In this document: positions 18,480 through 33,181 of the stretch, piece by piece
How positions within the stretch are numbered: position 1 is the stretch's first letter
Layout of the letters: each line of letters starts with the position of its first letter
Assembly: GCA_001825335.1 (NCBI GenBank)
Contig: MHWA01000007.1
Coordinates: 2,369 to 35,549 of the forward strand
DNA from: Candidatus Zambryskibacteria bacterium RIFCSPLOWO2_01_FULL_35_19
Lineage (GTDB): Bacteria; Patescibacteriota; Minisyncoccia; Phycocordibacterales; WO2-35-19
DNA: 33,181 bases
Direction: 5' to 3'
Made by a program: the position numbers and the translations under genes
The notes under the pieces: model-generated
Told to the model about the DNA's origin: nothing
Database searches by the model: none
The model's input: the letters and a program-made list of their open reading frames with translations, nothing else

Positions 18480-19372
18480 TGAAATATATAGACATACATT
18501 GTCATTTGGACTCTCTTGATTATGACTCCGATAGGGAAGAAGTTTTGGTGCGAATGAGAGAGAAGGAAATAGGGACCATAACTATTGGAGCAGATTTGGA
18601 AAGTTCCAAAAAAGCGTTTGAGATAGCGGAGCAAAACGAAAATGTTTGGGCTTGTATTGGCGTGCATCCTAATTGTTTAACAGAAAAGTCCAATAATACT
18701 GTTTCTACGTTAGGTCATAAGGATAATACTCTTGAAACAGTATTATCAGACTTTTCTCCGGATGGATATTTTGAAAAATTAGTAAAAAACCCTAAAGTGG
18801 TCGCCATCGGTGAATGTGGGCTTGATTACTTTGCCCCGCGAAGCTCGAGCGGAGCGAAGAGCGAAGTGGGGTTTTCAGACAAAGATAAGCAGAAAAAACT
18901 TTTTAAAAAACAAATTGAATTTGCTATAAAATATAATAAACCTTTGATGCTCCATATAAGAGACTCTCATTCGGCAAATTCAGGACAAGCTTATGAAGAT
19001 GCTCTAGATATTTTAGAAAGTTATAAAAAAGTTGCAGGTCCTGAAGATGCAAAACTGAATGGCAATGTTCATTTTTTTGCTGGAGATGTGTCGGTGGCTA
19101 AAAGATTTTTGGATTTAGGTTTTAGTATGTCTTTTACGGGAGTGATCACTTTTACACACGACTATGATGAAGTAATTAAATTTATTCCACAGGATTTTAT
19201 AATGGCAGAAACGGATGCTCCATGGGTTGCTCCGGTACCATTTAGGGGGAAAAGAAATGAGCCAACTTATGTGATTGAAGTTATAAAAAAACTAGCAGAA
19301 ATAAGAGGAGAGAGTGTGGAAGTATTAAATAATCAAATATTAAAGAATTTTAAACGGGTATTCAAAATATAA
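18479..19372 (+). CDS. TatD-family metal-dependent hydrolase with two in-frame insertions
   Basis: YIDIHCHLDSLDYDSDREEVL, ACIGVHPN, VVAIGECGLDYF, MLHIRDSH, AETDAPWVAPVPFRGKRNEPTYV. Confidence 0.95.
   Translation: MKYIDIHCHLDSLDYDSDREEVLVRMREKEIGTITIGADLESSKKAFEIAEQNENVWACIGVHPNCLTEKSNNTVSTLGHKDNTLETVLSDFSPDGYFEKLVKNPKVVAIGECGLDYFAPRSSSGAKSEVGFSDKDKQKKLFKKQIEFAIKYNKPLMLHIRDSHSANSGQAYEDALDILESYKKVAGPEDAKLNGNVHFFAGDVSVAKRFLDLGFSMSFTGVITFTHDYDEVIKFIPQDFIMAETDAPWVAPVPFRGKRNEPTYVIEVIKKLAEIRGESVEVLNNQILKNFKRVFKI
18683..18756. repeat. Hairpin element copy A, in-frame inside tatD
   Basis: 23-nt arms gaaaagtccaataatactgtttc / gaaacagtattatcagacttttc (2 mismatches); 28-nt loop tacgttaggtcataaggataatactctt. 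Confidence 0.9.
18834..18871. repeat. GC-rich palindromic insertion inside tatD
   Basis: ccccgc-gaa-gctc-gagcggagcgaa-gagc-gaa-gtgggg: hairpin with symmetric GAA/GAA internal loop, encoding PRSSSGAKSEVG. Confidence 0.65.
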
Positions 19373-19448
19373 AAATCCCAAATAGTATTATTTCTGCGTT
19401 AGGTCATTGAGGATAAGGCTCTTGAAACAATACTATTTGGGATTTTTT
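19371..19448 (+). terminator. Hairpin element copy B, acting as the apparent tatD terminator
   Basis: 24-nt arms aaaaatcccaaatagtattatttc / gaaacaatactatttgggattttt; 29-nt loop tgcgttaggtcattgaggataaggctctt; T-run. Loop about 24/29 identical to copy A. Confidence 0.88.
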
Positions 19449-19484: not shown

Positions 19485-19572
19485 CTCTATTCGGGTCAGA
19501 GGCGCATTTATTCTAATTGCCTCCAGTATTTCACCTATTTTAGGCGGAAGGTCCCACCCGTAAAATAAATTT
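19485..19572 (+). promoter_or_regulatory. Possible structured leader upstream of rpsF (S6:S18-type ribosomal leader candidate)
   Basis: Complementary CGGGT..ACCCG, GAGGC..GCCTC and ACCT..AGGT segments immediately before rpsF-ssb-rpsR. Family assignment not verified. Confidence 0.45.
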
Positions 19573-32685: not shown

Positions 32686-32708
32686 CTACCAAGGACTCTC
32701 CTTGGTAG
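32686..32708. repeat. REP-like palindrome 1 upstream of RAYT
   Basis: CTACCAAGGA-CTC-TCCTTGGTAG. Confidence 0.9.
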
Positions 32709-32747
32709 TATCTAGCTAATTTGATATATTTATCCCCATAAAAATAC

Positions 32748-32769
32748 CTACCAAGGAGAGTCCTTGGTA
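32748..32769. repeat. REP-like palindrome 2, in inverted orientation to palindrome 1
   Basis: CTACCAAGGA-GAG-TCCTTGGTA; reverse complement of 32686-32708 minus one terminal base. Confidence 0.9.
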
Positions 32770-32779
32770 TAATTTAAAG

Positions 32780-33181
32780 ATGGAAAGAAAAGTGAGTTTT
32801 GCACCAGGTGAATATTTTCATATATATAATCGAGGCACCGAGAAAATAAAAATTTTTAATAATACAAACGATTACCAAAGATTTTTAGAATCTTTGTATT
32901 TATTTAATTCTACAAAAAGGATAGTTTTGCGTTCCATAAGCAAGAAAAAAAGATTTAATTATGACCGTGAAGATACTCTGGTTGACATAGGAGCATATTG
33001 CTTGATGCCAAATCATTTTCATTTATTAATAAGAACTAAAGATGAATTTTCGGTCAGTAATTTTATGAAAAAATTATTAACAGCTTATTCTATGTATTTT
33101 AATAAAAAATATAATAGAAGTGGAGTATTGTTTCAAGGACCATTTAAAGCCCAACATGTTACCAGAGACGAATACTTAAAA
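32780..33181 (+). CDS. REP-associated tyrosine transposase (RAYT, Y1_Tnp/HUH), partial at window edge; missed by the ORF track
   Basis: My translation: MERKVSFAPGEYFHIYNRGTEKIKIFNNTNDYQRFLESLYLFN...VDIGAYCLMPNHFHLLIRTKDEFSVSNFMKKLLTAYSMYFNKKYNRSGVLFQGPFKAQHVTRDEYLK; HUH motif HFH and YSMYFNKKY. Confidence 0.95.
   Translation, partial: MERKVSFAPGEYFHIYNRGTEKIKIFNNTNDYQRFLESLYLFNSTKRIVLRSISKKKRFNYDREDTLVDIGAYCLMPNHFHLLIRTKDEFSVSNFMKKLLTAYSMYFNKKYNRSGVLFQGPFKAQHVTRDEYLK

Follow-up and report, generated by a model that had tools for sequence, protein, structure and literature searches.

The window analysed here, a stretch of 33,181 nucleotides, comes from the 510-kb genome of a Candidatus Zambryskibacteria bacterium (G000) and contains the gene tatD, within which one hairpin (copy A) is read in frame and at whose end a second hairpin (copy B) begins (Table 1). 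The predicted tatD product is confidently a TatD DNase. Direct reading of the sequence places both hairpins where the first-pass annotation had put them, copy A at 18682–18757 inside tatD and copy B at 19371–19447. As it had also reported, the two loops are identical at 24 of 29 columns, and the arms are unlike between the copies yet compensatory, each hairpin pairing with itself, with a single A.C mismatch in copy B. The further claim that copy B holds an in-frame stop and a T-run was right in part: the T-run does follow, but the TAA (19370–19372) sits at hairpin B's foot and does not lie within the hairpin.

Table 1. Position and make-up of tatD and of the two hairpins, in window coordinates.
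Feature	Position	Strand	Sequence and remarks	Basis
tatD, TatD DNase family, 297 aa	18479–19372	+	copy A in frame	Pfam PF01026 (E 3e-71), alignment, structure model
Copy A, 5′ arm	18682–18705	+	outer AGAAAAGTC (18682–18690), CA, inner ATAATACTGTTTC (18693–18705)	direct reading, pairing
Copy A, conserved loop	18706–18733	+	TACGTTAGGTCATAAGGATAATACTCTT; codes part of STLGHKDNTLE in TatD	
Copy A, 3′ arm	18734–18757	+	inner GAAACAGTATTAT (18734–18746), CA, outer GACTTTTCT (18749–18757)	direct reading, pairing
Copy B, 5′ arm	19371–19394	+	AAAAATCCCAAATAGTATTATTTC; starts inside the tatD stop codon	direct reading, pairing
Copy B, conserved loop	19395–19423	+	TGCGTTAGGTCATTGAGGATAAGGCTCTT	direct reading
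Copy B, 3′ arm	19424–19447	+	GAAACAATACTATTTGGGATTTTT; T-run at end	direct reading, pairing

The region has other features of its own. A second, GC-rich palindrome, CCCCGCGAAGCTCGAGCGGAGCGAAGAGCGAAGTGGGG, lies in frame in tatD at window positions 18834–18871 (APRSSSGAKSEVG); it is absent from relatives and has partial matches elsewhere in the congeners G005 and G003. Additionally, the leader before rpsF (window ~19490–19572) hardly differs between G000 and G005, and G007 has a similar one. This stretch is possibly a ribosomal-protein leader, and it has no Rfam match at the gathering threshold.

Copies in the window's genome and beyond

The first-pass annotation had allowed that the likeness of the two hairpins might be due to chance if no further copies existed, and had proposed a covariance-model search. 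The likeness is not due to chance, as both DNA search and covariance model find more copies. A DNA search of G000 with copy A gave 10 matches, and a covariance model made from 11 copies identified at least 16 distinct copies in this genome (E 1e-18 to 2e-11); copy numbers throughout are lower bounds. With the same model, congeners G003, G005 and G006 have at least 3–4 copies each, and no copy was among the matches listed for congeners G001, G002, G004 and G007 or for the family relative G008. The Nomurabacteria genome Ike-100m-2 (G420) contains at least about 15 copies, and four more genomes contain at least 1–2 each.

The distribution is narrow. An exact-pattern scan of 84,980 bacterial species genomes gave 16 matches, which fell in Zambryskibacteria, several Nomurabacteria, a further Patescibacteria MAG, one uncultured MAG and one contig labelled Magasanikbacteria, with no match in Rickettsia. 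LBTN01000029.1 (L069), the contig filed as Magasanikbacteria, matches the window's tatD letter for letter across the stretch seen; it probably derives from the window's own organism or was misbinned. Among 297 genomes of the order, sampled over 165 genera, one genus alone scored, the window's own, and among 380 genomes of the phylum the exact pattern had no match outside G000. We rejected a viral or plasmid source, as viral contigs, phages and plasmids gave no convincing match. Rfam 15 at the gathering threshold identified only tRNAs in the window and nothing at copies in other loci. No description of the element was found in open-access literature text, and the family is apparently undescribed before.

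The whole element spans ~75–90 bp. A loop of ~28 nt, TGCGTTAGGTCATAAGGATAAGGCTCTT with small changes, is near-constant across copies, and it is carried on a stem (median 25 bp) whose sequence varies by copy and is self-complementary in each. The arms group into related subfamilies. Position 10 of the 5′ arm usually has one extra base, A in Zambryskibacteria and C in Nomurabacteria, and some copies have CA or TC on both sides of the inner stem. The loop may also contain a weak helix (GC.TTA/TAA.GC); in one Nomurabacteria copy (L185, minus strand near 34) it is broken by a small hairpin, GAAAAATAAAGGGATTTATTTTTC.

In-frame copies and orthologous sites

Copies are dispersed, mostly intergenic and sometimes in frame within genes, and they decay differently in sister genomes. 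We found in-frame copies in TatD and RseP of G000 and in RNase R of G003, all of them lineage-specific and all in a single sense frame reading (S)ALGHKDKAL. The extra TatD residues suspected at copy A are borne out: residues ~69–94 lie between HP and KVVAIGE, in a loop rich in indels that is absent or different in 22 of 22 aligned relatives. In the AlphaFold model (mean pLDDT 89), residues 70–80, inside the insert, are the only stretch below 50. The intact frames suggest that the enzymes carrying copies are still functional. Among the 16 copies listed in G000, 2 lie in coding DNA, against a window that is 89% coding (p ~4e-12), suggesting that coding insertions are avoided or purged.

In G005 the same TatD loop is occupied by a palindrome of another kind and in G008 by one of the CCCTCTCC type, and the RseP loops of G003, G006 and G007 contain further, distinct hairpins. 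With this variety of palindromes, the two loops are hotspots for palindromic inserts. In rseP of G003 (L154) and G007 (L150) we also observed an in-frame hairpin family with a common GTCCTCGGGTC...CCAGAC centre and compensated arms.

Occupied and empty orthologous loci were compared, as had been proposed, and relatives without the element were found at several slots. Between recJ and rnhA the element is present in G000, and G001, G002, G004 and G006 are empty, with a spacer of ~20–30 nt and no terminator hairpin. The whole hairpin was therefore gained in G000 or repeatedly lost elsewhere. Relatives without the element were also observed at the rnhA-comEC, tpiA, xth-xer and GH-VirB4-like slots. 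Insertion into pre-existing terminators was rejected, given the hairpin-free recJ-rnhA empties and the unrelated stem of the G002 tatD terminator. In the recJ-rnhA slot of G007, and near an element copy of G005, there are inverted repeats CCCGTTAGA...TCTAACGGG (L099/L108), possibly of another repeat family.

Some orthologous copies appear to be decaying. The arms of the element are mismatched at the GH-VirB4-like orthologue in G005, and rseP of the same genome has kept the 5′ arm with loop and 3′ arm gone, 48 nt having been lost in frame between TGTTCC repeats. For the rseP locus, partial loss in frame between these repeats is a better reading than an empty site. Its arm equals the element consensus, and on this ground we rejected 'snap-back' insertion, in which arms are copied from the target flank. 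Neighbouring pairs less than 1 kb apart number 3 against 0.46 expected (p 0.009), as expected of local hopping.

Insertion boundaries were not base-exact at any of the compared slots, because the closest relatives differ there. Also counted against mobility, neither a transposase, a target duplication nor recent transposition was found. Mobility is nevertheless well supported by genome comparison. The dispersed copies, the empty orthologous sites, the in-frame insertions confined to single lineages in tatD, rseP and rnr, and the patchy distribution support one of two explanations offered by the first-pass annotation, a mobile palindrome that can insert into coding sequence. Copies A and B are thus probably two members of a family of mobile palindromic DNA elements, small and non-autonomous.

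Stem covariation, RNA and termination

Pairing in the stems is specific to each copy. In the inner 9 bp a copy's own arms make 8.30 pairs, compared with 6.09 with the arms of other copies and 6.74 in the best of 1000 shuffles; for the outer arms the values are 12.7 pairs (own) and 6.6 (swapped). In a 41-copy alignment, 93.6% of cells are paired versus 76.6% after shuffling, and the covariation score is 0.456 versus 0.143 shuffled and at most 0.12 in slid registers. At the second pair from the loop all four Watson-Crick types are present among 47 copies (TA 17, CG 17, GC 7, AT 4). The covariation is real, but it need not imply selection on RNA.

The other explanation offered at the outset was a structured RNA or protein-binding site. 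In this view the conserved loop, on a stem of conserved shape, would act in cis on many transcripts and perhaps be bound by an RNA-binding protein. Selection on the RNA of a given strand is expected to leave G.U, not A.C, pairs. Over whole stems, however, 1112 oppositions comprise 1061 Watson-Crick, 4 G.T, 22 A.C and 25 other, a significant bias of A.C over G.T (p 0.0005), and helix 1 has 98 both-sided changes against 4 one-sided standard ones. The A.C excess and the near-absence of G.U intermediates suggest either that the complementary strand folds or that copying at the DNA level maintains the pairing. We found no significant difference in folding energy between the strands. Orientation points both ways: by hand count 18 copies are sense and 7 antisense (p 0.04), an excess that fits a role in RNA, but one that still leaves about a quarter of the copies antisense (~7/25), and two orthologous slots are inverted. 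The position of some copies would also suit such a role, as several genes have one 25–60 nt before the start codon and three genomes outside the genus (L067, L074, L080) have one 35–43 nt upstream of dnaK; the adjoining genes, however, have no evident common function, half of the genus lacks the element, and no Rfam family corresponds to it. Despite the highly conserved loop, the covariation and the retention of the extra 5′-arm base across two lineages, we consider an RNA-level function unlikely to explain the family, although the conservation of the loop could reflect function. The dnaK-upstream copies have TTGCTC...CTCGCAA outer arms and were possibly co-opted for regulation.

Template switching between the arms of inverted repeats is a known process that homogenises both arms in a single step and inverts the spacer (PMC8604942, PMC8794818). 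We observed opposite orientations of the element at the tatD-rpsF slot (G000 versus G005) and at the slot downstream of alaS (G000 versus G003). These may reflect spacer inversion; independent insertion would also fit, given the differences between the arms. The element resembles homogenised repeats in its double changes, which keep the arms complementary, and in possible spacer inversion, but template switching has been described as a mutational process at unrelated hairpins, whereas the element forms a family of dispersed copies sharing one constant loop. In our best current reading, arm copying by template switching would account for most stem features. The 22:4 excess is a bias that symmetric template switching does not predict, and a strand-biased mutation spectrum may be its source. 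It would also be accounted for if binding were limited to the strand complementary to GCGTTAGGTCATAAGG.

Judged from sequence and position, terminator activity is plausible in Zambryskibacteria, and transcription of tatD probably ends at copy B. In Zambryskibacteria, most copies occupy the stretch from a stop codon to the -10-like box that follows it and have A-run and T-run ends. This raises the alternative that the family consists of bidirectional intrinsic terminators whose likeness stems from shared function or gene conversion and not from mobility. Of 47 copies, 25 have TTTT close to the end of the stem; these are mostly from Zambryskibacteria and include copy B, and the genomes are AT-rich. 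The T-run is, however, absent from most Nomurabacteria copies, and a constant 28-nt loop is unnecessary for termination. Some copies also precede divergent genes or lie within genes, the empty recJ-rnhA orthologues had no earlier terminator, and a single clear convergent-gene site (G3_C8) was found among 37 copies with tabulated neighbours. We therefore regard termination as quite unlikely to explain the family as a whole. A simple terminator scan does not span a loop this long.

Mobilisation and known palindromic repeats

No mobilising enzyme was found; RAYTs are common in the genus, but the palindromes observed beside them are their own. A MITE would have constant terminal inverted repeats, a target-site duplication and a parent IS; no parent IS was found, the arms vary by copy, CA or TC borders the inner stem on both sides in some copies, and no empty site is base-exact. 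The element could in principle be the REP of one of the RAYT (Y1) transposases of G000. Y1_Tnp matches three genes of this genome, one of which is truncated where the window ends, and several genes of G003, G005 and G006; at the alaS slot, moreover, the element is present in two species (G000, G003) and a RAYT with CCCGAAGTCCAACTTCGGG-type REPs is present in G005:C26 (L143). However, the RAYT flanks examined have other, short-loop palindromes or none, the draft genome of G420, with its ~15 copies, has no Y1_Tnp match, and the element-free G001, G002, G004 and G007 do have Y1_Tnp. The GTAG/CGTC stem foot is also absent in the tabulated copies. Such an origin is very unlikely, and a direct RAYT/REP link was rejected on the different REPs beside the RAYTs and the missing Y1_Tnp match in G420. 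The RAYT-like Y1 transposase of the window (32780–33181, truncated by the contig end) is preceded by palindromes TACCAAGGACTCTCCTTGGTA and TACCAAGGAGAGTCCTTGGTA near 32687–32770. The integron attC consensus is GTTRRRY; by inspection GTTAGGT fits it but sits in the loop and not in the stem foot, and an attC site was rejected.

In the two main superfamilies of REPs the feet are GTAG/CGTC, stems are mostly 6–9 bp long and loops are often very short (PMC3733652). The element is likewise a small palindrome, and its genomes also contain RAYTs accompanied by REPs of their own, but it lacks such feet, the short stem, the short loop and a cognate RAYT. The SPRITE of Streptococcus pneumoniae, with 30 per genome, is an AT-rich terminator-like hairpin with AAAA/TTTT ends and no known transposase (PMC3049150). 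The element is similarly a low-copy, AT-rich, terminator-like hairpin repeat with no known transposase, and many of its copies have A-run/T-run ends; it differs in its ~25-bp stem, constant loop and in-frame coding copies from the 18-bp duplex and long U-rich tract of SPRITE, and its neighbours are mostly co-directional, whereas SPRITE is enriched between convergent genes.

Rickettsia palindromic elements are short palindromes found between genes and in frame within protein genes, where they encode a conserved peptide (PMC10969869). The likeness to them proposed by the first-pass annotation holds for behaviour: a dispersed multi-copy palindrome (at least 16 copies in G000, median stem 25 bp) with in-frame copies in one open frame (LGHK) in TatD, RseP and RNase R. 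Rickettsia palindromic elements, however, are ~150 bp long and form about ten families, whereas this element has ~75–90 bp, a constant loop and variable arms, belongs to another phylum, and has 2 of its 16 listed G000 copies in coding DNA. We draw the analogy in behaviour and do not propose kinship by descent.

For a mobile palindrome of this kind, we suggest that an enzyme supplied in trans would move the element, perhaps via a folded single strand, recognising the loop and the 1-nt bulge of the 5′ arm. After insertion, one arm would be copied onto the other by replication template switching, without G.U intermediates and with a possible flip of the loop. A copy with a T-run at its stem end may then act as a transcription terminator, and genic copies would persist only in proteins that can accommodate an extra loop, and only when the insert is read in the open frame ALGHKDKAL. 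A bolder version, for which we see no more than a slim chance, is that the constant ~28-nt loop is itself the mobile or recognised unit, with the stem re-templated during or after insertion, so that part of each copy's arms would be newly formed, by a dedicated enzyme for single-strand hairpins that is not yet known from these ultra-small bacteria.

Genomes of the Candidate Phyla Radiation are small and thought to be streamlined. Protein-invading palindromic DNA, best known from Rickettsia, is now placed in this group. Compensatory changes in stems are commonly treated as proving selection on RNA; with its dozens of copies, its constant loop and its covarying stems, the family provides a natural test of whether DNA copying can yield such changes. 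The TatD and RseP loops, whose palindromes vary with the species, illustrate how such inserts can supply new protein segments.
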